64,000 nt of DNA from Mugil cephalus (Eukaryota > Chordata > Actinopteri > Mugiliformes > Mugilidae): contig NC_061785.1 of assembly GCF_022458985.1 (NCBI RefSeq), forward strand, positions 410,001 to 474,000, in the 5' to 3' direction. A model generated the notes under the pieces. It was not told where the DNA came from and searched no databases. It saw only the letters and a program-made list of their open reading frames with translations. Made by a program: the position numbers and the translations under genes. This document shows positions 2,661-58,882 of this stretch, piece after piece (the stretch's first letter is position 1; every line of letters begins with the position of its first letter).

Positions 2661-2984
2661 TTGTTGTCTCTTAGAGAGCCTTTATAATGTAGCATGTGAT
2701 GACTGGTTCAGAGCTGTTTCTAAGGAACATGTCAGCTTGTTAAAATGTGTGTCCTGTGTTTAAAGGAAGACCAAAGACTCTCCTGTATCCAGCTGTGTCC
2801 ATGGGGACTGAGCAGTCTAAGGCTCCACCTGTTGACTCCAAACATGGACAGCAGTCTGCTGATCCAGGGTAAGAAATCTAAACTGATGCTTCATCAAGTA
2901 TTGAACACATTCTAGCAGCAGGAGACATAAAGACACATTCATCCATCAGATGGTGTTTCTATCATCCTCCTGTGTCAACTCATT

Positions 2985-3383
2985 TGTTCTGTGAAGGCTT
3001 CTAGTTGTTGGCTCTTGGTTTGGACCCAGGTGTCATCAACATAACTGAAGCAGGTGTTGTTCTCTTGAAGGAGCTCAATGCTCTGCTTTCCACTTCCTCC
3101 ATGTAGAGACCGACCACAGTCGGTGACACTGGAGAACACATGACACAGCCATGTTTGATGTGGAGAAAGCCTCATTGTATCTGAAGGATGTGGTAGTTAG
3201 ACGGAGGTCAAGCAAGACACATATCTGATGAGAGGTGGACTTGGTTCCATTCTTAAAAGTCATGTCTTCTTTCTGGAAAGAATCCCTGGAGTAGACTACA
3301 TACTGGAAACTAATCTCCTCATCCAAAACCTGGTCCTCAGCAGACACTATGAACAGTATCTGAGCTGGAAAATACTCCTTCAT
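2985..3383 (-). pseudogene. Penelope-like reverse transcriptase relic, unit A
   Basis: Three minus-strand frames together give recognisable reverse transcriptase pieces. [14 protein letters not shown] comes first, then [18 protein letters not shown] in a second frame, then the YVDDTWV catalytic box in a third. The order and the SPxSP/YVDDTWV wording fit Penelope-like elements rather than LINEs. Two frame changes make it non-functional. It lies between NLR N-terminal exons and is shared with B (27050-27415) and, up to the gap, with C. Confidence 0.7.
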
Positions 3384-4261
3384 GTTTCCTGAAGCTTGTC
3401 CTGTTATTTGAATTCAACATTAAACATTGTATTTACATATTATATCCAGTGTTTGGAGGAGGATCCTTCAACAGAAACATGATTCTCCTGAACACAGCTG
3501 TGTGTCCATGAAGAGTGACCGGTCTATGGATCAACCTGTTACCTTCAAAGATGGACACCAGTCTGATGATCCAGGGTGAGACAAACAGCATTTATCTGAA
3601 CAAACAAAGGGCTTCACATCAAAACATTTAACATTAAAACTGAAGAATCCAGAAAGAATTTACTCAGAATGTTAATCCAGGTTGTGTTTTAACAGGATCC
3701 ATCAGCAAAGACCAGATCCCTCTGGAATCACAGCTGTGTCCATGAAGAGTGACTGGTCTATGGATAAACATATTAACTTCAAAGATGGACAGAAGTCTGC
3801 TGATCCAGGGTCAGAATGAACACAGATCTATTCATCATTATTCAGTTGTGTTGATTAGTCTGTCATGTTTTAGTCCAGAGTTTATCTGTAGCTTAGTTTA
3901 CTCTGTTAAACACCACATTCAGTCATCAGAGCAGCGTTTGTTGTTCTCATCTTGTGTTTGTGGCATCAATAAAATGATGATCATCACCAAAGTGTGTTTG
4001 TTAAAGAAGTGAGTTTGAATTAAAGATGTTTCTCCACAGACTTCAGCAGCAGATCTCAGTGGTTTCCAGTCATCAGTCTGAGCAGCAGCATCACAAAGAC
4101 CTGGACTCCATATTCATGGTGAGGAAATGTTCAATCACAGCTGCTACTGCTAACCTCAACAAGCACAAACTACCATTCTGCTTGGAGAAGTCTTCATGTT
4201 GCATGCTGACCACAAGCAGCCTTTCACATCAACGTGACTGGAGATTATTATTCTGTTCCAG

Positions 4262-4490
4262 CTGCTGGAGGAGAACATGGTCAGTTTTATGAAGAAGGAG
4301 CTGAAGAAGATCCAGAAGGTTGTGAGTCCAGATTACCCAGAATGCTCAGAGAGTCAGAGGGAGGATGAGGAGGTGTTGGAGGGTGAGGATGAAGAACAGA
4401 GGAGGAGCAGCAGAGATTTATTGGTGAAGATGACAGTGAACTTCCTGAGGAGAATGAAGCAGGAGGAGCTGGCTGACTGTCTGCAGAGCA
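4262..4490 (+). CDS. NLR charged helical exon before FISNA, unit A
   Basis: This exon follows TTCTGTTCCAG and ends before GTAAGAGG. It encodes about 76 residues starting [18 protein letters not shown], then a run of acidic residues ([18 protein letters not shown]) and [16 protein letters not shown]. It is the conserved helical linker found before FISNA in fish NLRC3-like proteins. It is in phase with the exons on both sides, and the copy in B (28329-28557) encodes the same protein sequence. Confidence 0.8.
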
Positions 4491-4692: not shown

Positions 4693-6479
4693 GAACTCGT
4701 GCTGCAGAATGTGGACGTAAAGTTAAATCTAGTCTGAAGGAGAAGTTCCAGTGTGTGTTTGAGGGGATTGCTAAAGCTGGAAACTCAACCCTTCTGAATG
4801 AGATCTACACAGAGCTCTACATCACAGAGGGAGGGACTGCAGAGGTCAATGATGAACATGAGGTCAGACAGATTGAAACAGCATCAAGGAAACCACACAG
4901 AGCAGAAACAAGCATCAGACAAGAAGACCTCTTTAAAGCCTCACCTGGAAGACATGGACCAATCAGAAGAGTGATGACAAAGGGAGTGGCTGGCATTGGG
5001 AAAACAGTCTTAACACAGAAGTTCACTCTGGACTGGGCTGAAGACAAAGCCAACCAGGACATCCTCTTCATATTCCATTGACTTTCAGAGAGCTGAATTG
5101 GTGAAAGAGAGAAAGTTCAGCTTGGTGGAACTTGTTCATCACTTCTTCACTGAAACCAAAGAAGCAGGAATCTGCAGCTTTGAAGACTTCCAGGTTGTGT
5201 TCATCTTTGACGGTCTGGATGAGTGTCGACTTCCTCTGGACTTCCACAAGACTGAGATCCTGACTGATGTTACAGAGTCCACCTCAGTGGATGTGCTGCT
5301 GACAAACCTCATCAGGGGGAAACTGCTTCCCTCTGCTCGCCTCTGGATAACCACACGACCTGCAGCAGCCAATCAGATCCCTCCTGAGTGTGTTGACATG
5401 GTGACAGAGGTCAGAGGGTTCACTGACCCCCAGAAGGAGGAGTACTTCAGAAAGAGGTTCAGAAAGAAGGCCAGCAGGATCATCTCCCATATCAAGACAT
5501 CACGAAGCCTCCACATCATGTGTCACATCCCAGTCTTCTGCTGGATCACTGCTACAGTTCTGGAGGATGTGTTGGAAACCAGAGAGGGAGGAGAGCTGCC
5601 CAAGACCCTGACTGAGATGTACATCCACTTCCTGGTGGTTCAGGCCAAAGTCAAGAAGGTCAAGTATGATGGAGGAGCTGAGACAGATCCACACTGGAGT
5701 CCAGAGAGCACGAAGATGATTGAGTCTCTGGGAAAACTGGCTTTTGATCAGCTGCAGAAAGGAAACCTGATCTTCTATGGATCAGACCTGACAGAGTGTG
5801 GCATCGATATCAGAGCAGCCTCAGTGTACTCAGGAGTGTTCACACAGATCTTTAAAGAGGAGAGAAACCTGTACCAGGACAAGGTGTTCTGCTTCGTCCA
5901 TCTGAGCGTTCAGGAGTTTCTGGCTGCTCTTCATGTCCATCTGACCTCCATCAACTCTGGAGTCAACCTGATGGAAGAACAACAAACTACATCTCTGTGG
6001 CCTAAATTACTTGAAAAACTAACACATCTCCATCAGAGTGCTGTGGACAAGGCCTTACAGAGTCCAAATGGACACCTGGACTTGTTCCTCCGCTTCCTCC
6101 TGGGTCTTTCACTGCAGACCAATCAGACTCTCCTACGAGGCCTGCTGACACAGACAGGAAGTAGCTCACAGACCAATCAGGAAACAGTCCAGTACATCAA
6201 GAAGAAGATCAGTGAGAATGTGTCTGCAGAGAGAAGCATCAATCTGTTCCACTGTCTGAATGAACTGAATGATGGTTCTCTAGTGGAGGAGATCCAACAG
6301 TCCCTGAGATCAGGAAGTCTCTCCACAGATGAACTGTCTCCTGCTCAGTGGTCAGCTCTGGGCTTCATCTTACTGTCATCAGGAGAAGATCTGGATGAGT
6401 TTGACCTGAAGAAATACTCTGCTTCAGAGGAGGCTCTTCTGAGGCTGCTGCCAGTGGTCAAAGCCTCCAACAAAGCTCT
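4693..6479 (+). pseudogene. FISNA-NACHT exon of NLR A, two one-base deletions
   Basis: The FISNA part includes [13 protein letters not shown] and [19 protein letters not shown]. Walker A is GVAGIGKT. The frame breaks just after DILFIF (stop at 5079). The rest is readable in another frame: [10 protein letters not shown] (Walker B), WITTRPAAA (sensor 1) and [15 protein letters not shown] (winged helix). Length is 1787 bp against 1798 bp in B; the difference is the two deletions plus a 9-base indel near 5991-6030. Splice sites are intact (TTGTTCAG|GA at the start, CT|GTAGGTGG at the end). Without a continuous frame the ATPase could not form. Confidence 0.88.
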
Positions 6480-6561
6480 GTAGGTGGATTTAGGAACTAT
6501 TTGAAACATTGATTCATTTAGTAAATGAAAAATAAAACATTTGATGTTGATTCTTCTTCAG

Positions 6562-7029
6562 GCTGAGCAGCTGTAACCTCTCAGAGAGAAGCTGTGAAGC
6601 TCTGTCCTCAGTTCTCAGCTCCCAGTCCTCCAGTCTGAGAGAGCTGGACCTGAGTAACAACAACCTGCAGGATTCAGGAGTGAAGCTGCTGTCTGCTGGA
6701 CTGGAGAGTCCTCACTGTAAACTGGAAACTATCAGGTCAGGATACAGCTGCTTGTTGATCAGTTAAATCCTGATTTAGGTTCATGTTGGTACAAGTTCAA
6801 CATGTGGAGGATTTTCCTTCTTCTTCTTGAGTTTCTGATATGTTTCTATCTCCAGTCTGTCAGGTTGTCTGATCACAGAGGAAGGATGTTCTTCTCTGGC
6901 CTCAGCTCTGGCCTCCAACCCCTCCCATCTGAGAGAGCTGGACCTGAGCTACAACCATCCAGGAGACAAGGGAGTGAAGCTGCTGTCTGCTGGACTGGAG
7001 GATCCACTCTGGAGACTGGACACTCTCAG
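6562..7029 (+). CDS. Two LRR exons of NLR A
   Basis: Two exons of exactly 174 bp each (6562-6735 and 6856-7029), the standard fish NLR leucine-rich repeat exon size. The first encodes [18 protein letters not shown] and [19 protein letters not shown]. The second encodes [15 protein letters not shown] and [19 protein letters not shown]. Each holds two LRRs and keeps phase 2. They are open, but they lie downstream of the NACHT frameshift. Two LRR exons is few for the family, in which number varies. Confidence 0.85.
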
Positions 7030-7371
7030 GTATGGACACACAACAGGAGCTCACACAGTGTAGGTTTGTCCATCGTCTTCTCTCTGTGGAGCTACTGAGG
7101 TCCTCAGAGGATGAACCCTCCTCCATTAACACGTTTACACTTTTAGTTTGTAGTGAAATATACAAAAACTATCTACTGATGGATTGATGGAAAACTATAA
7201 ACAGATATCAGAGTTCAGATTAATCTTCTGTCACCTCAGTGATTCAGTGATTTCCATCTTCCTCCATCATTGGACCAATGTTTCCACAACATCAAATGAA
7301 TATTTATTCTTCCTTCCTTCATGTTAAACATCAGTTAGGACTCATGTTGGATGAAAATCCTTGTTTATGTG

Positions 7372-7954
7372 TGTTACGCTCCGGCTCGCCAGGGAAAAGT
7401 GGAGCAACACAAAATAACCAGACGTTAAGGTTTTGGGTAGTTTATTGTAGCGTAACTTAATTAACACAACAAAACAGGAAAGAAGGTCGGTGGATGCTGT
7501 TCAAAGCAATACAGAAAACAACAAAAGGTTAGCTACTTGCTAAGCTAACATAAAAAAACAAACAACAAGTAGCATCACTACACCAAGTGTGTCTAATACA
7601 AAGGAAAATCCTACCAGTGGTGGAAAATTAGCAGGATCTGCCTAAAACTAATCTACGACCTGGCCACTCTTCACAAACAGAACAAAACTAGAATACAGAC
7701 ACTATAGTTAGGTACAAATTTAGGCTTTGGTCGCAACCTGCCCCAAACTGCAGAAAACCCAGGCACTACGATCTACAGGATACATACGTAAAGCACAGCC
7801 AATCAGGAACAAGGGTGGAGCGAGGTCTGGATCGGCAGGATCCCAGTAGACGGCACCAATCACGTCAGAGGGTGGAGCTTCCAGGTCCAGCAGCATCAGG
7901 CAGCTTGGTTAGGTTTCAAATACACAACAGAAATAACAAGCTGCAGCTGTAACA
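7372..7954. mobile_element. Solo-LTR-like insertion in NLR A intron
   Basis: The insertion runs TGTTACGCTCC...GCTGTAACA with 5-bp flanks ATGTG/GTGTG, consistent with a slightly altered target duplication. The same intron position in B (around 33220) reads straight through without it, which defines both ends. TG...CA ends and 583 bp length fit a solo LTR, but the short TGTTAC/GTAACA inverted ends would also suit a small DNA element. No coding capacity. Confidence 0.65.
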
Positions 7955-7972
7955 GTGTGTTTGTTCCTCCAG

Positions 7973-8769
7973 GATGGACCATGGTGGAGAGCAGTGGTTA
8001 AAACCTGGTCTGAGGAAGTGTAAGTTTGACTAATGATGACAAACTGTCAGTTTAAAATCAAAGCTGATAGTTGTGGTATTTATTCATTTAATCATCACTG
8101 ACAAGAGAATCCTGATCTAAAGTATCACCATTAAACTTTCTATGAATGAACAACAGATCAGTGAGTAAAGAAAGAATTAATCCATCAGATGTGTCACATG
8201 ATAAACTGCAGCTGTGTTGTGTCTTTTTCTCTCCATCAGATTTCTGTGAACTTGAAGTCGACACAAACTCAGTCAATAGATTCATCAAACTATCTGACAA
8301 CAACAGGAAGGTGACATGTGTGAAGGAGGAGCAGCCATATCCTGATCATCCAGACAGATTTACCTATAATCAGCTGCTGTGTAGAAATGTTGTGACTGGT
8401 CGATGTTACTGGGAGGTTGAGTGGAGAGGAAAGGTTTATATATCAGTGAGTTACAGAGGAATCAGAAGGAGAGGAAACATGAATGACTGTGTGTTTGGAG
8501 GGAATGATCAGTCCTGGAGTCTGTTCTGCACTGATCATGATGGTTACTATGTCCGTCACAATAACGGAGAAACATCCATCCCCTCGTCCTCTGTCTCTCA
8601 CAGAGTCTCAGTGTATGTGGACTGTCCTGCTGGAACTCTGTCCTTCTACAGTGTCTCCTCTAACAAACTGATCCACCTCCACACCTTCAACACCACATTC
8701 ACTCAACCTCTCTATCCTGGATTTAGAGTCTTGTTTCCTGGTTCCTCAGTGTCTCTGTGTTCTCTGTAG
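7973..8769 (+). CDS. Linker exon plus B30.2 (PRY-SPRY) exon of NLR A
   Basis: A 47-bp exon (7973-8019, [15 protein letters not shown]) joins a 530-bp exon (8240-8769) that encodes 176 residues and ends in TAG. PRY starts at [16 protein letters not shown] landmarks include [29 protein letters not shown] and the end SVSLCSL. The domain is complete and open. In fish NLRs and finTRIMs, B30.2 is the presumed ligand-binding module. It differs from the B copy at 22 codons, all amino-acid changing. Reading depends on the broken NACHT exon upstream, so the full protein is not made as assembled. Confidence 0.87.
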
Positions 8770-9150
8770 GAAGGAAGGAGAGTCTTTAAAGTGACAGCAG
8801 CTTCAACTCTGCTTTAAATGTTGATGGTGGATTCTCTTTGGTTCACAGATGAATCACTGACTGTGATTTCATGTCAGAATATGTTTTATCTTAGAAGTAG
8901 TGAAATAATCTCCTAACATGTGGATTTTGATGCTAACGTGTATCTGGATAATCCTGGACTGATGGAAGTGAATATTATTTGTTAAGATGTGTTTTACTGT
9001 GTGCTGTGTCTCCTGTGTCTGAATGGACATGAGACATTAATGAACTCTGGTCTCTACTCCACCTTTATATCAATCAATGTTCATCATCGTTATTAATCAA
9101 CCTTTGGTTTTTAATCATTAATCTTAATGAAACTCAGTTCAGTCTAAACC

Positions 9151-9156
9151 AATAAA
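9151..9156 (+). terminator. Candidate polyadenylation signal of NLR A
   Basis: AATAAA about 380 bp after the stop codon, within a 3' flank that is nearly identical to that of unit B (34411-34416). No cDNA evidence, so this is position-based only. Confidence 0.4.
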
Positions 9157-10294
9157 TAATCAGATATAAAAGGATCAACAGGACTTCATCATCATCTCAT
9201 CACTTATTAAAACTTTACTGAATCAACTTTAATCTCCTTCATTGTTTTTCTTTGTGTAACTGTTTAAAAGAGACTCAGCAACAGGTATTCAGTGTATGTG
9301 ATTGTTTGTTTGCTCTTCTCGTCCTTAAATCATTCAACAGTGATTGGGGATGTGAAAAATGAAATCACCACCCTGCAATGAGGATCTTGAGTGAGTAGTG
9401 TGTCATTTCATCAAATTCAATTAATTCAAGGCGAGATTCAAGACAAGATCGACACAGCAAAAAGTGGAGAGTTAAAATTTCAGGGTTAAACATCTGGGAG
9501 TTGATTTTAACTCCCAACGTGTAAATTTAACACATTTGGATTTAAATCGTGTCCAGAGTCAGAGTTATTTCACAGAGTTGATCAGATCAGTGTTAGTTTA
9601 ACTCTGCAAAGACATCATCCATTAAGCTTCGCCTTTTCTCCTGCACTTCACTTCTTCAGTCAGTTCTATTTACACGGTAAGTGAAATTTAGTTAAAACTT
9701 ACTAAAACAATTATGAATTGATGGTGTGAACTGCAGTATGTTCATTAATACGTCGAATATATACTCTTCAAAGCCTTGTTTGTTGCAGGACTGAACAGTA
9801 AATATGTCCACGTGTGGTGAGCTAGCAAGATAACATTAGCTTAATTAGCTAACTGCTAGTTACTAAAACTGTCTGTAATTATCAATGACATGTTAACAAC
9901 AAGCTGCTGTTATGTTTTTACTGTTTAAAGTCTTATTTGAGGCTGGAGCGAACGGTCCGGATTTATTGTTTTTTTGTGGTTGACCACGAAGGGCGCAGCT
10001 AAAAACATGTTTTAACATGTACATGTTTTTAGCTGCGCTAAAAGCTAAGCGCGGCTAATGCTAAACGTTAGCTTAATTAGCTAGCTCGGCGGCTAACTCG
10101 GCTGCTAACTGGCTAACTGTAGACGGGATCATCCCTATGTAGGACATGTTTTTAGCTGCGCTAAAAGCTAAGCGCTGTTTATGCTAAAGCGCTATTTCTC
10201 CTGTCTTGTCTGTGTGACCGGGACTTTTCTTTCCCTTATTCCTGTTAATGTTCATTTACTTTGTGAATATTGTTTTGCATGTCCAAGTAAAAAG

Positions 10295-26834: not shown

Positions 26835-27876
26835 GAAGACCAAAGACTCTCCTGTATCCAGCTGTGTCCATGGAGACTGAGCGGTCTAAGGCTCCACCTG
26901 TTGACTCCAAACATGGACAGCAGTCTGCTGATCCAGGGTAAGAAATCTAAACTGATGCTTCGTGAAGTATTGAACACATTCTAGCAGCAGGAGACATGAA
27001 GATCATTCATCCATCAGATGGTGTTTCTATCATCCTCCTGTGTCAACTCATTTGTTCTGTGAAGGCTTCTAGTTGTTGGCTCTTGGTTTGGACCCAGGTG
27101 TCATCCACATAACTGAAGCAGGTGTTGTTCTCTTGAAGGAGCTCAATGCTCTGCTTTCCACTTCCTCCATGTAGAGACTGACCACAGTGGGTGACACTGG
27201 AGAACACATGACACAGCCATGTTTGATGTGGAGAAAGCCTCATTGTATCTGAAGGATGTGGTAGTTAGACGGAGGTCAAGCAGGACACATATCTGATGAG
27301 AGGTGGACTTGGTTCCATTCTTAAAAGTCATGTCTTCTTTCTGGAAAGAATCCCTGGAGTAGACTACATACTGGAAACTAATCTCCTCATCCAAAACCTG
27401 GTCCTCAGCAGACACTATGAACAGTATCTAGAGCTGGAAAATACTCCTTCATGTTTCCTGAAGCTTGTCCTGTTATTTGAATTCAACATTAAACATTGTA
27501 TTTACATATTATATCCTGTGTTTGGAGGAGGATCCTTCAACAGAAACATGATTCTCCTGAACACAGCTGTGTGTCCATGAAGAGCGACTGGTCTATGAAA
27601 GAACCTGTTACCTTCAAAGATGGACACCAGTCTGATGATCCAGGGTGAGACAAACAGCATTTATCTGAACAAACAAAGGGCTTCACATCAAAACATTTAA
27701 CATTAAAACTGAAGAATCCAGAAAAATTACTCAGAATGTTAATCCAGGTTGTGTTTAAACAGGATCCATCAGCAAAGACCAGATCCCTCTGGAATCACAG
27801 CTGTGTCCATGAAGAGTGACTGGTCTATGGATGGACCTATTAACTTCAAAGATGGACAGAAGTCAGCTGATCCAGG
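26835..27876 (+). CDS. Three repeated N-terminal exons of NLR B
   Basis: Exons 26835-26937, 27544-27644 and 27763-27876 are diverged copies of one module. They read [39 protein letters not shown] and [18 protein letters not shown], each ending DPG with a phase-2 donor. Such repeats are usual at the start of fish NLRC3-like genes; their function is unknown. Exon 2 has two more bases than the phase of exon 1 allows. Exon 1 ATG and exon 2 ATG each supply exactly 68 coding bases to exon 3, so exon 1 and exon 2 may act as alternative first coding exons. Confidence 0.75.
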
Positions 27877-30800
27877 GTCAGAATGAACACAGATCTATTC
27901 ATCATTATTCAGTTGTGTTGATTAGTCTGTCATGTTTTAGTCCAGAGTTTATCTGTAGTTTAGTTTCCTCTGTTAAACACCACATTCAGTCTTCAGAGCA
28001 GCGTTTGTTGTTCTCATCTTGTGTTTGTGGCATCAATAAAATGATGATCATCACCAAAGTGTGTATGTTAAAGAAGTGAGTTTGAATGAAAGATGTTTCT
28101 CCACAGACTTCAGCAGCAGATCTCAGTGGTTTCAAGTCATCAGTCTGAGCAGCAGCATCACAAAGACCTGGACTCCATATTCATGGTGAGGAAATGTTCA
28201 ATCACAGCTGCTACTGCTAACCTCAACAAGCACAAACTACCATTCTGCTTGGAGAAGTCTTCATGTTGCATGCTGACCACAAGCAGCCTTTCACATCAAC
28301 GTGACTGGAGATTATTATTCTGTTCCAGCTGCTGGAGGAGAACATGGTCAGTTTTATGAAGAAGGAGCTGAAGAAGATCCAGAAGGTTGTGAGTCCAGAT
28401 TACCCAGAATGCTCAGAGAGTCAGAGGGAGGATGAGGAGGTGTTGGAGGGTGAGGATGAAGAACAGAGGAGGAGCAGCAGAGATTTATTGGTGAAGATGA
28501 CAGTGAACTTCCTGAGGAGAATGAAGCAGGAGGAGCTGGCTGACTGTCTGCAGAGCAGTAAGAGGATTTAACAGCTTTAACTGGATGGAAAGAGGAATGG
28601 AGGAAACATGGGACAAGTTTACATTTCTACACTCTGATGTTAATATGATGCAAACATCTGAATCAGATCTATGAATTCTACTGGACTGAAAACAGTCACA
28701 TGTAAATGTTATTAAAATGAATGAGTTCACTGATTAATTACATTTCTTGTTTGTTCAGGAACTGTTGCTGCAGAGTGTGGACGTAAAGTTAAATCTAGTC
28801 TGAAGGAGAAGTTCCAGTGTGTGTTTGAGGGGATTGCTAAAGCTGGAAACTCAACCCTTCTGAATGAGATCTACACAGAGCTCTACATCACAGAGGGAGG
28901 GACTGCAGAGGTCAATGATGAACATGAGGTTAGACAGATTGAAACAGCATCCAGGAAACCACACAGACCAGAAACAAGCATCAGACAAGAAGACCTCTTT
29001 AAAGCCTCACCTGGAAGACATGGACCAATCAGAAGAGTGATGACAAAGGGAGTGGCTGGCATTGGGAAAACAGTCTTAACACAGAAGTTCACTCTGGACT
29101 GGGCTGAAGACAAAGCCAACCAGGACATCCTCTTCATATTTCCATTGACTTTCAGAGAGCTGAATGTGGTGAAAGAGAGAAAGTTCAGCTTGGTGGAACT
29201 TGTTCATCACTTCTTCACTGAAACCAAAGAAGCAGGAATCTGCAGCTTTGAAGACTTCCAGGTTGTGTTCATCTTTGACGGTCTGGATGAGTGTCGACTT
29301 CCTCTGGACTTCCACAAGACTGAGATCCTGACTGATGTTACAGAGTCCACCTCAGTGGATGTGCTGCTGACAAACCTCATCAGGGGGAAACTGCTTCCCT
29401 CTGCTCGCCTCTGGATAACCACACGACCTGCAGCAGCCAATCAGATCCCTCCTGAGTGTGTTGACATGGTGACAGAGGTCAGAGGGTTCACTGACCCCCA
29501 GAAGGAGGAGTACTTCAGGAAGAGGTTCAAAAAGAAGGCCAGCAGCATCATCTCCCACATCAAGACATCACGAAGCCTCCACATCATGTGTCACATCCCA
29601 GTCTTCTGCTGGATCACTGCTACAGTTCTGGAGGATGTGTTGGAAACCAGAGAGGGAGGAGAGCTGCCCAAGACCCTGACTGAGATGTACATCCATTACC
29701 TGGTGGTTCAGGCCAAAGTCAAGAAGGTCAAGTATGATGGAGGAGCTGAGACAGATCCACTCTGGAGTCCAGAGAGCAGGAAGATGATTGAGTCTCTGGG
29801 AAAACTAGCTTTTGATCAGCTGCAGAAAGGAAACCTGATCTTCTATGAATCAGACCTGACAGAGTGTGGCATCGATATCAGAGCAGCCTCAGTGTACTCA
29901 GGAGTGTTCACACAGATCTTTAAAGAGGAGAGAGGCCTGTACCAGGACAAGGTGTTCTGCTTCGTCCATCTGAGCGTTCAGGAGTTTCTGGCTGCTCTTC
30001 ATGTCCATCTGACCTTCATCAACTCTGGAGTCAACCTGATGGAAGAACAACAAACTACATATCTGAGGTTTAAACTCTCTGTAAACAAACCTAAACTACG
30101 ACGTCTCCATCAGAGTGCTGTGGACAAGGCCTTACAGAGTCCAAATGGACACCTGGACTTGTTCCTCCGCTTCCTCCTGGGTCTTTCACTGCAGACCAAT
30201 CAGACTCTCCTACGAGGCCTGCTGACACAGACAGGAAGTAGCTCACAGACCAATCAGGAAACAGTCCAGTACATCAAGCAGAAGATCAGGAAGAATGTGT
30301 CTGCAGAGAGAAGCATCAATCTGTTCCACTGTCTGAATGAACTGAATGATGGTTCTCTAGTGGAGGAGATCCAACAGTCCCTGAGATCAGGAAGTCTCTC
30401 CACAGATAAACTGTCTCCTGCTCAGTGGTCAGCTCTGGTCTTCATCTTACTGTCATCAGGAGAAGATCTGGATGAGTTTGACCTGAAGAAATACTGTGCT
30501 TCAGAGGAGGCTCTTCTGAGGCTGCTGCCAGTGATCAAAGCCTCCAACAAAGCTCTGTAGGTGGATTTAGGAACTATTTAAAACATGTTTCATTTAGTAA
30601 ATGACAAATAAAACATTTGATGTTGATTCTTCTTCAGGCTGAGCAGTTGTAACCTCTCAGAGATAAGCTGTGAAGCTCTGTCCTCAGTTCTCAGCTACCA
30701 GTCCTCCAGTCTGAGAGAGCTGGACCTGAGTAACAACAACCTGCAGGATTCAGGAGTGAAGCTGCTGTCTGCTGGACTGGAGAGTCCTCACTGTAAACTG

Positions 30801-33800
30801 GAAACTCTCAGGTCAGGATACAGCTGCTTGTTGATCAGTTAAATCCTGATTTAGGTTCATGTTGGTACAAGTTCAACATGTGGAGGATTTTCCTTCTTCT
30901 TCTTGAGTTTCTGATATGTTTCTATCTCCAGTCTGTCAGGTTGTTTGATCACAGAGGAAGGATGTTCTTCTCTGGCCTCAGCTCTGAACTCCAACCCCTC
31001 CCATCTGAGAGAGCTGGACCTGAGCTACAACCATCCAGGAGACAAGGGAGTGAAGCTGCTGTCTGCTGGACTGGAGGATCCACTATGGAGACTGGACACT
31101 CTCAGGTTGGTATGAACCTTGTTATTCATATGTTCATATTCATGTTGCATCTAAATTGTCTAAAGACTGAGAGGAGGAACAAGATAATACAAACATCTGA
31201 TGAAGCATCAACGTGATACAAACAAGAGAACGAGATATATGTGATGGATGTTACATGAGATGTTGTTTAAGCAATATTACCCTCGAGCGTGTGCTTTAAC
31301 GTCATTTTGAGGACGACGGTGATGCGTTCAGGACCGAGGGGCCTGCGCAATTATACAACAATTACCAACAAAATAAAGCGTATAATTAAATTTATATTCA
31401 TGTTGATGGACATTTTGTCTCAAAATTTAAAGTTTTTTTTGAGTGTTGTTCCCGTTTCCATGTAAATAAATGGGGCCTGACTAATACCTGGAAAACAATC
31501 AGTCACAGCATTAGACTCCTATGTGTAATGGAACAGTTTACTACTCCAGGAAGTAGCCCGAGCCTTAGTAACGACCTAGCAACGGAGAAACTTTCTAGTC
31601 CCGTCAAAGTTTATGGAGATGGTGGAGTTGCCCAAACTGAATAAATAGCGCACATATAAACACTAAACTGCTTGGTTAGTTTAGTCTTGTAGTGACTAAC
31701 ATGTCTGCTGTAAAATCTATGTTTACATAGACAGACTGGGCTCCTAGTTTCACATTTATTTTGAAGCCTGCGTCGTATCAGGGACTCACTGGAACAGCTG
31801 ATGATCCCAACATTTCCAGTAACTCCACAGAGTGGTAAAGTCCAAAAGTCAAAATGTATTGAACAAAGATCGATGGAATAATTTCCAACATGAACATCAT
31901 GTTTCTATCTGAGGGAATATTCCTCTTCAGTCCATATTAGTCCACCTTTAGCCTGTAGAAATATTTTCTCTGCGCTCACTGAACTGTTTGATCTCCGACG
32001 TGAGGAACAAATGAGTTACACCTGAATTAACAAGGCGGTCTAACAGAAGATTTATTAAAGAAAGCTGAAGTAGTAAACTCAGACTTATGACTTTATTGAA
32101 GTTGACTTCCAGTGGACTTATTCCTATTTATTTACATGTTATAGACGTGACAATGTGGAGATGGCGGAGTGATATTTTTAGTGATGAGTCAGCCGTGCTG
32201 TAACGCTGATTTGAGCACGTTCTAAATGTCTCATTGACCAATCAGATTGCTTGGTCAGAACTACTTGTTGTATAATATTGAATAAAGTGGAGCTGCCAAT
32301 AGAGGAACCATTGAAAATAATTAGTGTAGAAACATTTGTTGGGTAAACAGTGACCTCATAAAGTTTCTCTTATGAGGATTAACAGCAGCATAGGGACATT
32401 CAACTCTTAGTGACAGTTGTTCCATCACAGGTGAATTAGCTGCTATAATGTTTGAATAATAGAATCATAGGCAGGTTGGAGGATGAAGCATTCAGGTAGG
32501 AGTGGATAACTGCAGGTCATGAAGACTGGGCAGGTTGATGAGACCAGGACCATAGATGAGTTGTATGGAGCTCCACAGGTCAGAAACATGAAGAAGATGT
32601 GAGAGGATATGGCCCTGGTGCATCATGGGAAGTCCCCCAGCAGCTTAGACCTATAGCAACATAACTACAGGATGGTTGTGGGTCACCTGAAGATAGAGAG
32701 TCTCTGAGGAGTTGAGGACTGAACACAATAACTTTGGTTTGTCTGAGTTTACAAGTAGAAAACTACAAGTTATCCAAGACTTTACTCATTCAAGTCACGC
32801 TTGGAGTTTGACCAACTGATCTGTTTCCTCTGGCCTCATGGATCATTTAGCTGGGTTTCATTGTTGAAGTGAAGTTCTCACATTCTTCACTTGTGAATCA
32901 GAACCATGTTTTGATACAATAGAATCAAATCATTTCAGGTGAACAGACATTTTTTTATCCTTTTTAACGTGACAGAGATTTTACACTGAGGTCCTCAGAG
33001 GATGAAACCTCCTCCATCATCATCATTGAGAAATATTTCAACAACTACAGATGGATGGATCACTGTAAAAATAATACAAAAAGATAACAGTTCATAGAGA
33101 ATAATCTTCGTTCATCTCAGTGATTCCCTAAATCTAATGTCCTCCATCACCAGATCAACCTTTCTACTAAACCAACTTCTTTTGGGGACTGATGTTGGAT
33201 GAAAATCATTGTTTGTGTGTTTGTTCCTCCAGGATGGACCATGGTGGAGAGCAGTGGTTAAAACCTGGTCTGATGAAGTGTAAGTTTGACTAATGATGAC
33301 AAACTGTCAGTTTAAAATCAAAGCTGATAGTTGTGGTATTTATTCATTTAATCATCACTGACAAGAGAATCCTGATCTAAAGTTTCACCATTAAACTTTC
33401 TATGAATGAACAACAGATCAGTGAGTAAAGAAAGAATAAATCCATCAGATGTGTCACATGATAAACTGCAGCTGTGTTGTGTCTTTTTCTCTCCATCAGA
33501 TTTCTGTGAACTTGAAGTCGACACAAACTCAATCAATAGATACCTCAAACTATCTAACAACAACAGGAAGGTGACACATGTGGAGGAGGAGCAGCCATAT
33601 CCTGATCATCCAGACAGATTTAACTGTTATCAGCTGCTGTGTAGAAATATTGTGACTGGTCGATGTTACTGGGAGGTTGAGTGGAGAGGAGTGGTTCATA
33701 TGTCAGTGAGTTACAGAGGAATCAGAAGGAGAGGAGACATAAATGACTGTTTGTTTGGATTCAATGATCAGTCCTGGAGTCTGTTCTGCTCTGATCATGA

Positions 33801-34029
33801 TGGTTACTATGTCCGTCACAATAACAGAGAAACATCCATCCCCTCGTCCTCTGTCTCTCACAGAGTCTCAGTGTATGTGGACTGTCCTGCTGGAACTCTG
33901 TCCTTCTACAGAGTCTCCTCTAACAAACTGATCCACCTCCACACCTTCAACACCACATTCACTCAACCTCTCTATCCTGGATTTAGAGTCTGGTTTACTG
34001 GTTCCTCAGTGTCTCTGTGTTCTCTGTAG
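26835..34029 (+). CDS. NLRC3-like NLR (FISNA-NACHT-LRR-B30.2), unit B, intact
   Basis: Cytosolic innate immune sensor of the fish-specific NLR class. Inferred exons: 26835-26937 (ATG 26870), 27544-27644 (ATG 27577), 27763-27876, 28107-28185, 28329-28557, 28759-30556, 30638-30811, 30932-31105, 33233-33279 and 33500-34029. Every junction is canonical. From ATG 27577 the joined coding length is 3213 nt, or 1070 residues plus stop, with no break. Domains: repeat module to about 60, helical/acidic linker about 88-163, FISNA from about 170, Walker A GVAGIGKT about 261, Walker B FIFDGLDE about 334, LRRs 763-878, B30.2 895-1070. Exon 1 cannot be read into exon 2 from its own ATG, because a stop follows, so the start is either in exon 2 or in exon 1 with exon 2 skipped. 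Confidence 0.9.
27050..27415 (-). pseudogene. Penelope-like reverse transcriptase relic, unit B
   Basis: Same fragment and same frame changes as in unit A (YVDDTWV box retained), lying between NLR exons 1 and 2. Confidence 0.68.
28329..28557 (+). CDS. NLR charged helical exon before FISNA, unit B
   Basis: Encodes [18 protein letters not shown], an acidic run, then [16 protein letters not shown]. The protein sequence is the same as the A copy (4262-4490). The 79-bp exon before it (28107-28185) encodes [20 protein letters not shown] and joins in phase. Confidence 0.82.
28759..30556 (+). CDS. FISNA-NACHT exon of NLR B
   Basis: 1798 bp and fully open. [59 protein letters not shown] with the Walker A lysine and threonine, [17 protein letters not shown] with tandem acidic Walker B residues, [19 protein letters not shown] (sensor 1), [15 protein letters not shown] (helical), and [17 protein letters not shown] for the winged-helix histidine motif. 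These support an ATP-binding oligomerisation module. A patch at 30061-30107 is unlike the A copy (9-base length difference) while both sides match closely. The exon closes CT|GTAGGTGG and joins the first LRR exon in phase 2. Confidence 0.93.
30638..31105 (+). CDS. Two LRR exons of NLR B
   Basis: Two 174-bp exons (30638-30811, 30932-31105) with [19 protein letters not shown] and [19 protein letters not shown]. They are in phase with NACHT before and the 47-bp linker exon after. Changes from A include R to I, S to Y and A to N on non-consensus positions. Confidence 0.88.
31106..33232 (+). other. Long NLR B intron with embedded transposon piece
   Basis: About 2.1 kb between the second LRR exon and the linker exon. 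Roughly 31110-32985 has no counterpart in A. It holds a hAT fragment (31345-31735) and otherwise AT-rich sequence in which I recognise no further LRR exon. Either A lost this segment or B gained it; the C copy that would decide is in the gap. Confidence 0.6.
31345..31735. mobile_element. hAT-like element fragment in NLR B intron
   Basis: Shares AATTATACAACAATTACCAA, then GTGTTGTTCCCGTTTCCATG and CATGTCTGCTGTAAAAT with the full element at 60016-60770. Both inverted ends are missing. Confidence 0.75.
33233..34029 (+). CDS. Linker exon plus B30.2 (PRY-SPRY) exon of NLR B
   Basis: The 47-bp linker exon (33233-33279, [15 protein letters not shown]) joins a 530-bp exon (33500-34029) of 176 residues ending SVSLCSL-stop. 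PRY/SPRY landmarks [14 protein letters not shown] and [15 protein letters not shown] are intact. Compared with A I count 26 base differences in 530, all non-synonymous, clustered at domain residues 12-29, 42-51, 65-68, 80-88, 98/110, 138 and 165-167. Adjacent intron and 3' flank differ at only about 1% of sites. This fits a recognition domain under diversifying pressure. Confidence 0.92.
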
Positions 34030-45084: not shown

Positions 45085-48000
45085 CAAGAATCAAGAATCA
45101 AGAATCTTTATTGTCATTATGCAAGGCACAACGAAATTCTGTTCAGCAGCTCTTGGTATAAATGTACAGACCTGAGATATATAAATAATATAAATATAAA
45201 ATAGAATAACAAGTTAAAATAAAAAATAGAATTTAAGAATAAAATGAGATGAGAGGTAGTAGTGCAATCAAGGATATTTAAAGTGACCAGTATGAATATT
45301 GCATGTATAGCAGCATGTTTAGACAAGGTGCAGTGCAGTATCAGAGTCTATCTGGCATCTGCAGGGGTTTAATGCTCAGTCTCTGGATGGGGGGGTATGT
45401 GAGGAGATGGGGTGATGGATTTCACAGCTCTGGGGAAGAAGCTGTGTCTCAGTCTGTTTGTGTTGGTCTTTATATTCCTGAACCTCTTCCTGGAGGGAAG
45501 AGGCACAAACAGTTCTTGGCCTGGGTGGGTGGGGTCTGCAGCTATACGGCCAGCCCTCCTTTGGACCCGGCTGTCATATATTGAGTCCAGGTGTGGGAGA
45601 GGACTCCCAACAATCCCCTGTGCGGTTTTCACCACCCGGGCCAAGTCCTTCCTGTCCTGTACAGTGCAGCTCCCATATCACACTGTTGCACTCAGACAGA
45701 GGATGCTCTCTATTGTGGCTCTGTAGAAGTTTGTCAGAAGCTGAGAGGAGAGTCCAGTCCTTTTCAGCTTCCTGAGGAAGAAGAGCCTTTGTTGGGCCTT
45801 CTTCACCAGGTGAGATGTATGCGTGGACCAAGTGAGGTCAGATGTGATGTGGATGCCAAGGAACTTGATGTTGTCCACCCGCTCCACCTCCTCCCCATGA
45901 ATGAGGAGAGGGGTGTGTTCCTTCCTCCTGGATCTCCTGAAGTCCACGATGACCTCCTTAGTCTTGCTGGTGTTCAGGACAAGGTTTTGTCTGAACACCA
46001 TCCTGTCAGGTGCTGGATCTCCTCTCTGTAGTGAGTCTCGTCGTTGTCCGATATGAGACCCACTACGGTGGTGTCATCTGCAAACTTCACAACCATGTTT
46101 GTGGGGTGAACGGCAGTGCAGTCATGTGTGAAGAGGGTGAAGAGGGCCGGGCTGAGCACACATCCCTGCGGTGTCCCTGTGCTCAGGACCAGTGTAGATG
46201 ATGTACGGTCCCCAATTCTCACCACTTGTGGCCTGTGGGTGAGAAAGTCTCTAATCCATGAGCACAGAGAGGCAGACAGTCCAAGGTTGTGGAGTTTCAG
46301 CGTCAGTTTGTCTGGGATCACAGTGTTGAAAGCTGAGCTGAAATCCACAAATAACATCCTGACGTAGGTGTTAGGATGCTCCAGGTGAGTCAGGGCCGTG
46401 TGCAGTGCTAATGAGACTGCGTCCTCTGTCGATCGGTTCTCCCTGTAGGCGAACTGATGTCTGTCCAGAGTAGCAGGGATAACGTCCTTGATGTGACTTA
46501 AGACCATCCTCTCAAAGCACTTCATGATTACCGGTGTTAAAGCAACAGGACGGTAATCGTTGAGGCAGGTGACAGCTGATTTTTTTGGCACCGGCACAAT
46601 GATGGAGGACTTGAGGCAGACAGGAACTGAAGCGAGCTGCAGGGACAGGTTGAAAATGTCCAGGAAGACTCCAGCCAGCTGATGGGCACACAGCTTCAGG
46701 ACCCGACCTGACACCTTATCTGGTCCTGCAGCTTTGCTGATGTTGATCCTCCTCAGCGTGGCGCTGACCTGGTGTTGCTGCAGGACGAGGGGCTGGGGCT
46801 GCTCCTCTGGCTGTGGAGGTTGGACAGTCTCTCTGCTGCCAGGTGTATCGAAGCGTGCAAAGAAAATGTTTAAAGTGTCAGGCAGAAGGGGGTCGTGGTT
46901 GAACTGCTGGTTGCTGTTCCTGTAGTCTGTTATGGTTCTGATGCCTCTCCACATTTCACGCGGGTTGTTGTCGGTGAAGTGCTGCTCGATGCGCTGTTTC
47001 TATCTGTGTTTGGCCTGCTGGATGCCCTTCTTCAGCTCCCTCCGGGCCCTGCTATAGGCCAGCCTGTCACCTGACCTGTAGGCTGCGTCTCTAGCTTTGA
47101 GTAGAGACCGCACTGTGCTGTCACACCATGGTTTCTGGTTGGGAAACACCTTGATGGACTTTGTGGGTAGGACAGCATCAGTGCAGAACTGCACATAGTC
47201 CAGGACGGATGATGTGTAGGCCTCCAGGTCTGAGCCATCTTTGAACACTTCCCAGTCAGTGAGTTCAAAACAGTCCTGTAGTGCTGAAGAAGCCTCCTCA
47301 GTCCATACCTGAACTGTTTTGGTGGTTGGTTTTGTCCTGTGGATCAGAGGTTTGTATGCTGGTATCAGCTGCACGCAGATGTGGTCAGATGAGCCCAGGT
47401 GAGGAGCTGCTGCAGCCTTGTAAGCTCCTGAGATGTTGCAGTAAACTTGATCCAGTGTGTTATTGTCTCTGGTTGGAAAGTGTATGGACTTGTAGAATTT
47501 TGGAAGCACTGCTTTGAGATTCACATGATTGAAGTCTCCAGCCACAATCACAGCTGCCTCTGGGTTGGAGTTCATCTGCCTGCTGATCAGACAGTACAGC
47601 TCCTCTAGCGCTAGCTTAGCGTTAGCCCGCGGTGGAATGTAAACAGCTATGATCAGGATGGAGCAGAACTCTCTCACCGTCTTGAATGGCCTGCATTTCA
47701 CAGCCAGGTATTCCAGATCAGGTGTGCAGTGCGTTCCGATGACGTGAGTGGCTGTACACCAGGAGTTGTGTACGTAGAGCGCGAGTCCTCCACCTCTGGA
47801 TTTAGTAGAGGCTGCAGTCCGGTCTGCTCGGAACAAAGAGCGTCCCGCCAGCTCCACCGCGGCGTCGGGTGTGTTGTTGTCCAGCCAGGTTTCCGTGATG
47901 ACGGCCACACAGCTGTCCATCCTCCGCGAGACGATCCTCAGCCGAATCTTGTCCATTTTGTTGGCCAGTGATCGGACATTGGCGAGGAGAAGACTGGGAA

Positions 48001-48325
48001 GAGCCGGCCGGTGCGGGTTAGCATGTAGCCTAGCACGCACGCCGCTCCTCTTGCCCCGCTTCTGTTTACGGTGTCTCCTCCGTCTCCTAGGCCACAGAGG
48101 GGGGACGACGAGAGCCGTGGTGGTTCGCTGGATCTCTGGTGGAATGAAGTCCAGCTTGGGATTTGTATAAAGTTGGCAGTTCCTTCCAATATGCAATAAC
48201 TCAGTCCTGCCGAACTGAATTAATGCCTCCAGTGACTGGAGCAACAGTGAAAAAACACACAAAAGCACGAATAAAACAAACCGAAGCCGAGAGCCCTGAG
48301 CCGCTGCGTACGTACGCGCCGCCAT
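45085..48325 (-). mobile_element. Jockey-superfamily LINE inserted in an older LINE, unit B
   Basis: Full-length-looking element on the minus strand. Its 3' end (low coordinate) carries CAATAAAGATTCTTGATTCT with three TTGATTC tail repeats; its 5' end lies at the first ATG of the ORF. The empty site in A (GCGGTGAAT|GTTCAGGG, about 22279) fixes the borders. The target GAAT matches the tail unit, so the target duplication is 2-4 bases at most. The same insertion is present in C. Confidence 0.88.
45369..48325 (-). pseudogene. LINE endonuclease-reverse transcriptase ORF, unit B copy, broken
   Basis: Reads from [10 protein letters not shown] (48325) through a basic stretch ([15 protein letters not shown]). 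The AP-endonuclease follows with [28 protein letters not shown] and SSDHI. The RT has [44 protein letters not shown] and [10 protein letters not shown]. It ends PPHPETEH at 45369, about 985 codons in all. Lesions: nonsense TAG at about 46999-47001, a one-base deletion near 45985, and nonsense TGA near 45678. The C copy lacks these but has its own. Clade (CR1/L2/Rex1) was not resolved. Confidence 0.88.
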
Positions 48326-49017
48326 GTTCAGGGTCACAAATTCCCGGGTGTTGACCTCAACAATAAACTGGACTGGACACACAACATTAACACCCTGTAC
48401 AGGAACCGAGTCGTCTTCACCTGCAGAGAAGGCTGAGGTCCTTTGGACTGTGCAGGTCACTGCTCAGGACCTTCTGTGACTCTGGTGTCTTCTGCCGTCC
48501 TGTGCAGTGGTCTGCTGGGGGACGGGGAGCTCAGAGAGGGACAGGAAGAGACTCTGTCCTGGACGGATCTCTGGACTCCATGGAGGAGGATGTTGGCCAA
48601 GCTGACATCAATCATGGTCAACCCCTCTCACCCACTGCTACCAGGAACGCTACCACAGGTCCTTCATCCCAACAGCACCAGCCTGAGTCAACAATAACCC
48701 AAACCTTAGACTTGTCTTTCAGACCTGTTTTGTCCTCTTTACAGATTTTTGTGCTGCCTGTCTGCACTAATTACCTCACTGTCCATGTTTCCAATCTTAG
48801 TAATTATATTCCTTTTTTTTTTTAGCTTTTCTTTAGTTCCCTACCCACATTGTATATACTGACTGTATACTGTGTGCTGTTTTTTTTTGTACATTTTGTA
48901 TATTCTTTCAAATTTGATATTGTCTTTTGTTTTTTCGTTAATATATTTCTTATGTAATTCTCTGCTACTGTGACAAGGAAATTTCCCATATGTGGAATAA
49001 ATAAATGTTCTCTTATA
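48326..49017 (+). pseudogene. Older Jockey-superfamily LINE 3' relic, unit B, split
   Basis: Continuation of the host LINE relic; its short left part lies at about 45040-45084. It retains SSAVLCSGLLGDGELREGQE and MLAKLTSIMVNPSHPLL and the CTGTGACAAGGAAATTTCCC tail. It is interrupted by the minus-strand LINE. Confidence 0.78.
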
Positions 49018-53805: not shown

Positions 53806-54129
53806 GAAGACCAAAGACTCTCCTGTATCCAGCTGTGTCCATGGAGACTGAGCGGTCTAAGGCTCCACCTGTTGACTCCAAACATGGACAGCAGTCTGCT
53901 GATCCAGGGTAAGAAATCTAAACTGATGCTGCATCAAGTATTGAACACATTCTAGCAGCAGGAGACATAAAGACACATTCATCCATCAGATGGTGTTTCT
54001 ATCATCCTCCTGTGTCAACTCATTTGTTCTGTGAAGGCTTCTAGTTGTTGGCTCTTGGTTTGGACCCAGGTGTCATCCACATATCTGAAGCAGGTGTTGT
54101 TCTCTTGAAGGAGCTCAATGCTCTGCTTT
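53806..54129 (+). CDS. NLRC3-like NLR, unit C: first coding exon, rest in gap
   Basis: Exon 53806-53908 (ATG at 53841, MSETERS-type module ending DPG, here [18 protein letters not shown]) is followed by donor GTAAGAAATC. The next exons would fall inside the N run. The preserved promoter block and exon suggest a third NLR gene, but its coding state cannot be known from this window. Confidence 0.7.
54030..54129 (-). pseudogene. Penelope-like relic, unit C, cut by the gap
   Basis: Contains the part after the YVDD box. It matches A and B up to the first N. Confidence 0.55.
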
Positions 54130-54629
54130 NNNNNNNNNNNNNNNNNNNNNNNNNNNNNNNNNNNNNNNNNNNNNNNNNNNNNNNNNNNNNNNNNNNNNNN
54201 NNNNNNNNNNNNNNNNNNNNNNNNNNNNNNNNNNNNNNNNNNNNNNNNNNNNNNNNNNNNNNNNNNNNNNNNNNNNNNNNNNNNNNNNNNNNNNNNNNNN
54301 NNNNNNNNNNNNNNNNNNNNNNNNNNNNNNNNNNNNNNNNNNNNNNNNNNNNNNNNNNNNNNNNNNNNNNNNNNNNNNNNNNNNNNNNNNNNNNNNNNNN
54401 NNNNNNNNNNNNNNNNNNNNNNNNNNNNNNNNNNNNNNNNNNNNNNNNNNNNNNNNNNNNNNNNNNNNNNNNNNNNNNNNNNNNNNNNNNNNNNNNNNNN
54501 NNNNNNNNNNNNNNNNNNNNNNNNNNNNNNNNNNNNNNNNNNNNNNNNNNNNNNNNNNNNNNNNNNNNNNNNNNNNNNNNNNNNNNNNNNNNNNNNNNNN
54601 NNNNNNNNNNNNNNNNNNNNNNNNNNNNN
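54130..54629. other. Assembly gap of exactly 500 N
   Basis: A round-number placeholder. Flanks correspond to 3089 and about 21829 in unit A and to about 27157 and 44762 in unit B, so the missing piece is probably 17-19 kb and includes most of an NLR gene. Confidence 0.95.
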
Positions 54630-57900: not shown

Positions 57901-58188
57901 CACGCCGCTCCTCTTGCCCCGCTTCTGTTTACGGTGTCTCCTCCGTCTCCTAGGCCACAGAGGGGGGACGACGAGAGCCGTGGTGGTTCGCTGGATCTCT
58001 GGTGGAATGAAGTCCAGCTTGGGATTTGTATAAAGTTGGCAGTTCCTTCCAATATGCAATAACTCAGTCCTGCCGAACTGAATTAATGCCTCCAGTGACT
58101 GGAGCAACAGTGAAAAAACACACAAAAGCACGAATAAAACAAACCGAAGCCGAGAGCCCTGAGCCGCTGCGTACGTACGCGCCGCCAT
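54954..58188 (-). mobile_element. Jockey-superfamily LINE inserted in an older LINE, unit C
   Basis: Same insertion site, orientation and tail as in B. By eye about 17 differences over 3.24 kb separate the two, so they descend from one insertion followed by duplication. Confidence 0.88.
55238..58188 (-). pseudogene. LINE endonuclease-reverse transcriptase ORF, unit C copy, frameshifted late
   Basis: Open from [10 protein letters not shown] (ATG at 58188) for most of the protein, through endonuclease and RT to VLSTGT. An extra T near 56034 then shifts the frame just before the PQG motif. Further damage: an in-frame 9-base loss near 55821 removing KEV after LNTSKT, and an extra A near 55480. 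The B-copy nonsense codons are absent, so the two copies decayed independently. The ancestor was probably an active element at or shortly before the duplication. Confidence 0.88.
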
Positions 58189-58882
58189 GTTCAGGGTCAC
58201 AAATTCCCGGGTGTTGACCTCAACAATAAACTGGACTGGACACACAACATTAACACCCTGTACAGGAACCGAGTCGTCTTCACCTGCAGAGAAGGCTGAG
58301 GTCCTTTGGACTGTGCAGGTCACTGCTCAGGACCTTCTGTGACTCTGGTGTCTTCTGCCGTCCTGTGCAGTGGTCTGCTGGGGGACGGGGAGCTCAGAGA
58401 GGGACAGGAAGAGACTCTGTCCTGGACGGATCTCTGGACTCCATGGAGGAGGATGTTGGCCAAGCTGACATCAATCATGGTCAACCCCTCTCACCCACTG
58501 CTACCAGGAACGCTACCACAGGTCCTTCATCCCAACAGCACCAGCCTGAGTCAACAATAACCCAAACCTTAGACTTGTCTTTCAGACCTGTTTTGTCCTC
58601 TTTACAGATTTTTGTGCTGCCTGTCTGCACTAATTACCTCACTGTCCAAGTTTCCAATCTTACTAATTATATTCCTTTTTTTTTTTTTTTTAGCTTTTCT
58701 TTAATTCCCAACCCACATTGTATATACTGACTGTATACTGTGTGCTGTTTTTTTTTGTACATTTTGTATATTCTTTCAAATTTGATATTGTCTTTTGTTT
58801 TTTCGTTAATATATTTGTTATGTAATTCTCTGCTACTGTGACAAGGAAATTTCCCATATGTGGAATAAATAAATGTTCTCTT
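58189..58882 (+). pseudogene. Older Jockey-superfamily LINE 3' relic, unit C, split
   Basis: Same as 48326-49017, with its left stub at about 54905-54953. The poly-T stretch near 58676-58691 is longer than in A and B. Confidence 0.78.

Follow-up and report, generated by a model that had tools for sequence, protein, structure and literature searches.

Diversifying selection on the recognition domain of tandem NLR-B30.2 receptor genes very probably explains how copies of these genes differ in Mugil cephalus, with a limited palette of residues occurring in different combinations from copy to copy. Few animal immune families are as large as the fish NLR-B30.2 receptors, whose ligands are, to our knowledge, largely unknown. 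The window, the 64,000-nucleotide stretch of DNA analyzed here, covers C16:410001-474000, and genome searches covered 634.8 Mb in 24 contigs of one assembly of one fish. Two tandem units located about 25 kb apart (copies A and B) and the beginning of a third unit are found in the window, all on the plus strand. Each of the two units represents one NLR gene consisting of N-terminal exons (copy A, 2801-4489; copy B, 26870-28556; both placed by alignment to the protein P0126), a FISNA-NACHT-WH-HD2 exon (4693-6479; 28759-30556), an LRR exon region with approximate limits (6563-7039; 30640-31109, its start estimated via the copy A offset), a 47-bp exon (7973-8019; 33233-33279) and a last exon encoding the B30.2 (PRY-SPRY) domain (8240-8769; 33500-34029). 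Between the LRR region and the 47-bp exon the two units share no homology, the intervening sequence spanning 0.9 kb in copy A (7035-7955) and 2.1 kb in copy B (31110-33215). The first exon of the third unit (53841-53909) is soon followed by a 500-base run of N (54130-54629) and the remainder of this gene may be absent or collapsed in the assembly.

The gene structure can be read from P0126, an NLRP12-like Mugil cephalus protein of 1109 amino acids whose C-terminus is encoded by the B30.2 exon of copy B at 100% identity. The other exons of copy B match P0126 in separate pieces of 96-100% identity and one long intron-spanning piece of 91%, while one further match of 59% is a cross-match of two similar N-terminal repeats. 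In addition, the last 120 residues of 10 of 11 further Mugil proteins are found letter for letter in C16 or C21 loci. The open frame of copy B at 28734-30560 carries PF14484, PF05729, PF17779 and PF17776 (FISNA, NACHT, winged helix and HD2). Copy A possesses an open piece at 5014-6483 with partial NACHT, winged helix and HD2 domains, and the stretch before 5014 aligns with P0126 residues 202-330 in a broken frame. LRR exons precede the B30.2 exon, with P0126 residues 803-921 aligning at 6563-7039 and in a chain ending at 31109; P0126 carries PF13516, which we take to be the LRR model. The copy A B30.2 exon (PF13765, PF00622) is preceded by AG and contains 175 codons and a stop, and in both copies PRY-SPRY is confined to the single last exon.

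The exon before B30.2 is exactly 47 bp long between AG and GT in both copies. A 47-bp exon has been reported as a mark of NLR-associated B30.2 domains in zebrafish, and the definition given in the available part of that study was matched here by size and borders (eLife 2024, PMC11192531). NLR-B30.2 genes are further characterized by dN/dS exceeding 1 in B30.2 while staying below 1 in NACHT, and the C16 copies show pN/pS of 2.55 and 0.75, respectively, the latter for the tested part of the NACHT exon with an HD2 patch excluded. An intact frame, which is not a defining trait, is found for the NACHT exon of copy B while that of copy A is frameshifted. A finTRIM identity is disfavored as a FISNA-NACHT exon and a 47-bp exon lie upstream of B30.2, where finTRIM genes carry RING and B-box domains. 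Judged by sequence, copies A and B are fish NLR-B30.2 (NLR-C) receptor genes arranged in tandem.

The B30.2 exons of copies A and B differ almost exclusively by amino acid replacements. A first-pass annotation of the window had counted 26 base differences in 22 codons with no silent change, and the alignment of 8240-8769 with 33500-34029 confirms this as all 22 codons change the amino acid. Averaged over single-step paths the count is 25.5 replacements and 0.5 silent changes because some GGG-TTC paths include a silent step. The last intron of copy A (8020-8239, about 1% different from copy B) and its 3' flank (8770-9190) served as internal neutral references. The annotated contrast between flanks of about 1% and an exon of about 5% likewise holds, with 2 differences in 202 bp on the 5' side, 3 in 421 aligned bp on the 3' side and 4.9% in the exon. 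Set against a wider homologous block (40 of 3200 positions, 1.25%), the exon (26 of 528, 4.9%) is significantly more diverged (Fisher p = 3e-7), and long non-coding stretches of the unit are 1.2-1.7% different. Among 26 random changes (kappa 1.94) about 6.8 would be expected to be silent; the probability of seeing none is 4e-4 when the 26 hits are treated as independent and 1.2e-3 when the 22 codons are counted instead. The flank rate, however, predicts just 1.7 silent changes in the exon (P(0) = 0.18) and 4.8 replacements compared with 26 counted (Poisson 1e-11). The informative statistic is therefore the replacement excess rather than the absence of silent changes, which would follow from the low silent clock combined with strong selection. 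The clusters of changed residues previously described agree with the alignment, apart from a numbering that was one higher, and the two observations that the annotation had set against its own reading, several synonymous differences and equally diverged flanking introns, are not seen.

The NACHT exon, for which about seven silent changes had been estimated alongside replacing ones, contains 32 differing codons between A and B, 8 of them silent. This tally results from 34 differing codons (9 silent) in the open frame of copy B minus two (one silent) located inside the pre-acceptor intron. The proportion of silent to replacing codons differs between the B30.2 and NACHT exons (Fisher p = 0.016) and, for A and B alone, the ratio over the whole NACHT exon is about 1 (pN 0.0215, pS 0.0207). 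An HD2 patch of this exon is also variable (A, 5992-6027; B, 30060-30104; P0126 residues 637-651). Between A and B it shows pN of 0.39 over 12 codons and a 9-bp indel; in the 14 C16 copies pN is 0.21 and pS 0.105 (ratio 2.0), and the ratio is 0.9 in six C21 copies. In contrast to B30.2, silent sites in the patch are elevated as well.

To place this pair among related genes, we used the 40 of 231 genome-search candidates that were scored, which yield copy numbers that are lower bounds: at least 16 B30.2 copies on C16 (17 entries, two of which are one copy) and at least about 13 on C21. C16 codon statistics are based on 14 of the 16 copies including A and B, with L036 (frameshift) and L040 (internal stop) excluded and L033 retained despite its altered end. 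The C21 comparison used 7 of the approximately 13 copies. The NACHT control comprised 20 of 40 listed matches (14 on C16, 6 on C21), excluding L058 and L061 for short frames and retaining the out-of-frame L052 end and L057 start. The B30.2 domain of one C16 copy (L037, C16:293881) carries a 15-residue insertion resembling an internal partial duplication. Among the matches listed, NACHT-exon DNA on C2, C3, C5 and C24 is 95-97% identical to that of copy B, and B30.2 DNA on C2, C3 and C5 is just 70-88% identical; judged from these identities, the two exons on other contigs seem to have had different histories.

An excess of replacements is a property of the whole family. pN exceeds pS in 91 of 91 pairs of the 14 C16 copies (median pN 0.076, median pS 0.028, pooled pN/pS 2.55), in 15 of 21 C21 pairs and in 93 of 98 C16-C21 pairs. 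Of all C16 pairs, A/B has the lowest pS, and its zero silent count is consequently the tail of a family-wide pattern rather than an event peculiar to this pair. In pairwise alignments of the last intron, median divergence is 1.5% within C16 and 3.8% between C16 and C21. Over the 3' 120 bp the C16 median divergence is 0.017 and the pooled value 0.053, certain copies being more diverged there; the C21 3' flank aligns poorly (medians 17-25%) and was excluded as a clock. Diversity per 60 bp across the 14 copies is 0.3-2.5% in the flanks, with one outer bin at 8.4%, and reaches 13.6% in the exon. At the protein level, seven full-length sequences encoded on the 24.44 Mb contig have a mean amino-acid diversity of 0.142 in B30.2 compared with 0.049-0.059 elsewhere. 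NACHT exon codons from about 390 to 608, without the HD2 patch, show pN/pS of 0.75 in C16 and 0.54 in C21. The N-terminal repeats (SMKSDxSMxxPxxFKDG) also differ among copies, with a diversity of 0.17-0.22 (P0126 residues 46-60 and 76-90; window 27529-27877).

The sites that differ between A and B are the variable sites of the family. Their entropy in the other 12 C16 copies is 1.13 bits versus 0.23 bits at the remaining sites (p = 3e-8). Six A/B sites (11, 50 and 67 in B; 97, 109 and 137 in A) are invariant in those 12 copies and lie outside the hypervariable set of the family; relaxed constraint could explain the ones in A. Comparison of models M1a and M2a gives 2dlnL values of 262 for all 14 C16 copies, 246 without A and 239 without A and B, 398 on a star tree, 115 for codons 1-70 and 124 for codons 71-175 on their own trees, and 80 for C21. 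These tests were carried out with our own code, unchecked against codeml, with relative branch lengths held fixed and sites assigned by naive empirical Bayes; M2a was rerun with a floor on further subsets and trees, and recombination can inflate such tests. Without A and B, M2a places 16.5% of codons at omega 18.6, the C21 family gives omega 8.9, and across M2a runs 16.5-19% of codons have omega above 1 with estimates from 9 to 40. Selected sites overlap between the two contigs: 13 are common to the 22 found in C16 without A and B and the 16 found in C21 (p = 2e-11). The former set covers 12 of the 22 A/B codons and 10 of the 153 others (p = 2e-7), the latter covers 6 of 22 and 10 of 153, and 9 of the 22 A/B codons fall outside the M2a class obtained with all copies. 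Outside the hypervariable codons pN/pS is 0.99. Of the burst of diversifying selection proposed earlier for this exon, the selection thus stands, on family-wide M2a results and pN above pS, while the burst in A/B does not, selection instead persisting across the entire gene family.

Taken together, these data indicate that silent sites, introns and the nearby part of the 3' flank drifted by about 1-3% after duplication while diversifying selection drove change at some 23-25 B30.2 codons, with omega of about 15-27 in the 14-copy set under a site model whose true tree is uncertain. At these codons a limited palette recurs, combined differently from copy to copy on both chromosomes, and each copy may consequently present a different recognition surface on a near-constant signaling chassis. 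By analogy with the published family and with NLR proteins in general, B30.2 is presumed to act as a cytosolic sensor of microbial or danger ligands, with oligomerization driven by NACHT.

Reassortment of residues among copies is a fact of the data and could have arisen either by micro-conversion or by repeated convergence on few good residues. The same selection may have acted on variation that arose for the most part through gene conversion over very short tracts, redistributing residues already present among the copies, with new mutation contributing less; we rate this possibility only a little below even. For 12 of the 22 A/B codons, the state in A and the state in B are each also found in the other 12 C16 copies; five further states are private to A and five to B. 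Four-combination pairs make up 65-66% of informative site pairs, like a complete shuffle, compared with 35-38% in simulated recurrent mutation without recombination, which also produces too few shared states. The simulation, however, permitted any residue without preference, and its star-tree scale was chosen by hand on the basis of the silent rate. Fewer minor residues are observed than simulated (113 versus means of 155-168), and a narrow palette by itself increases sharing between copies. At least two copies have the variant in common for 59 of 110 replacement variants, compared with 5 of 20 silent variants and 5 of 31 variants in the flanks; conversion would be expected to spread the latter two classes as well, yet 15 of 20 and 26 of 31, respectively, are private. 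Sites more than about three codons apart are associated no more than by chance. Within three codons a weak association remains (r2 0.12 vs 0.077; p 0.016 and 0.048 in two tests), but across the full exon the fall of association with increasing distance reaches only borderline significance (p 0.05).

Long conversion tracts are argued against because silent variants are mostly private. No GENECONV-like run among C16 copies is globally significant, the best being borderline at p = 0.054. Copy A matches L037 over 18 consecutive polymorphic sites (B coordinates 33508-33589) with a simulated P of 0.16. Similarity of flanks and exon is uncorrelated in Mantel tests on clean columns (r = 0.05-0.21, p >= 0.17); including all flank columns with ragged ends gives r = 0.50 (p = 0.001), and we trust the clean-column version instead. 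Similarities in two parts of the exon are likewise uncorrelated (r = -0.17, p = 0.84). On both chromosomes the palette is similar, with 30 of the 38 codons variable in C16 and C21 having at least two residues in common. A more far-reaching proposal, that the C16 and C21 NLR copies form a germline combinatorial system in which the residues of a fixed palette move among about 23 B30.2 codons' worth of sites in sub-exonic conversion tracts of about 10-30 bases, is tentative and in our judgment rather unlikely. Were it true, the repertoire would be refreshed by codon shuffling instead of new mutation, leaving introns, silent sites and the NACHT chassis unshuffled.

Other explanations dispense with selection on the exon and fare much worse. 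Exchange with a more diverged donor paralogue confined to the exon, raised in the first-pass annotation as a possible cause, would account for an exon four times more different than its flanks, and the 18-site run common to A and L037 could be viewed as a trace of it. Such an exchange would import silent differences, yet A/B has none by codon, the C16 median pS of 0.028 is near the values for intron (0.015) and 3' 120 bp (0.017), and the same pattern is present in all 91 C16 pairs compared. No diverged donor exon is required since silent divergence in the exon is at most about twice that of the flanks, leaving the exchange unsupported and highly improbable.

In this assembly copy A lacks an open NACHT frame owing to two 1-bp deletions relative to B, 26 bases apart at about 5073 and 5099, and is either a pseudogene or affected by an assembly error. 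If it is a pseudogene, relaxed constraint could mean that the differences are mostly decay, in keeping with the frameshifts and with five A-private changes, three of them at codons where the other C16 copies do not vary. Relaxation yields a neutral rate at most, while replacements are at five times the neutral expectation, and copy B has equally many private changes (five, three at otherwise invariant codons). The frameshift does not carry the selection result as the signal holds without A, as well as without both A and B, and decay as the main cause is very hard to credit. Localized hypermutation of the exon without selection would fit the concentration of changes at certain codons and a nominally higher silent rate in the 25 most variable codons (3 variants in 13.2 sites, 0.23, vs 15 in 110.8, 0.135, elsewhere), but is just as implausible given that this silent count is only 3 while extra residues rise 13-fold (83 in 61.8 sites, 1.34, vs 35 in 339.2, 0.10) and that silent variants in the exon do not differ significantly from flank variants (p = 0.15).

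We obtained a predicted fold for the copy B B30.2 domain (mean pLDDT 86.8) that matches TRIM25, TRIM16 and other PRY-SPRY structures. The human TRIM25 and TRIM16 PRY-SPRY domains share this fold (TM-score about 0.9 by query length) at about 30% identity and are different proteins. The earlier suggestion that changed residues occupy surface loops finds no support in the predicted fold, where 14 of the 22 lie outside beta-strands compared with 93 of 175 in the whole domain (p = 0.36). Against the same domain background, enrichment outside strands is also non-significant for selected sites of C16 without A and B (14 of 22) and of C21 (8 of 16). An i,i+2 spacing, as expected for one strand face, was considered but is not advanced here, with p = 0.04 for C16 without A and B, 0.10 for the star tree, 0.52 for C21 and 0.22 for the union.

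The phenomenon is already known from zebrafish, and the mullet array represents a new and sharper instance. In the available text of the zebrafish NLR-B30.2 study, median dN/dS in B30.2 is 1.44-1.57 for group 1 versus groups 1, 2a and 3a (dS 0.053-0.067), NACHT values are below 1, and positive selection together with gene conversion, including sub-exon tracts, is proposed; B30.2 as the recognition module is a presumption published there (Howe et al., 2016, PMC4852459). Zebrafish and mullet genes share the domain order of N-terminal peptide repeats, FISNA-NACHT, LRR and B30.2 on separate exons, and location of the majority of copies on one chromosome arm is a further likeness (PMC4852459). The mullet C16 contrast, with its pooled pN/pS of 2.55, is stronger, although methods differ, and our analysis adds introns and 3' flanks as a neutral clock and a linkage test, neither of which appears in the available text of that study, where the word 'linkage' is absent (PMC4852459). 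Zebrafish finTRIM genes, as described in the accessible portion of their report, similarly show positively selected sites in a closely related B30.2 sequence but possess RING-B-box domains instead of NACHT, and 14 of their 16-17 selected sites are in variable-loop regions, unlike the non-significant enrichment outside strands in mullet (van der Aa et al., 2009, PMC2657112). The zebrafish pan-NLRome shares with mullet the 47-bp exon and, in the part of the publication available, a very large copy-number-variable family; it concerns alleles within copies, whose low diversity was read as purifying selection, whereas the mullet variation is between copies (eLife 2024, PMC11192531). A literature search combining Mugil cephalus with NLR and genome assembly returned nothing. 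Comparison of the DNA with phage records likewise gave no match, in line with its fish origin. The array offers a clean natural experiment in which near-identical copies, with introns and silent sites as a clock, display selection at about two dozen named codons. Residues encoded at these positions are direct candidates for ligand contact, and comparisons across the array can help to distinguish new mutation from shuffling as the source of receptor repertoires.

Two long minus-strand ORFs in the window (45974-48463 and 55984-58326) sit in repeats that are 98.8% alike and presumably encode LINE endonuclease/reverse transcriptase, which they resemble by eye. A distant B30.2 match of 37% identity is located to the right of the window at L009:6692-7225.
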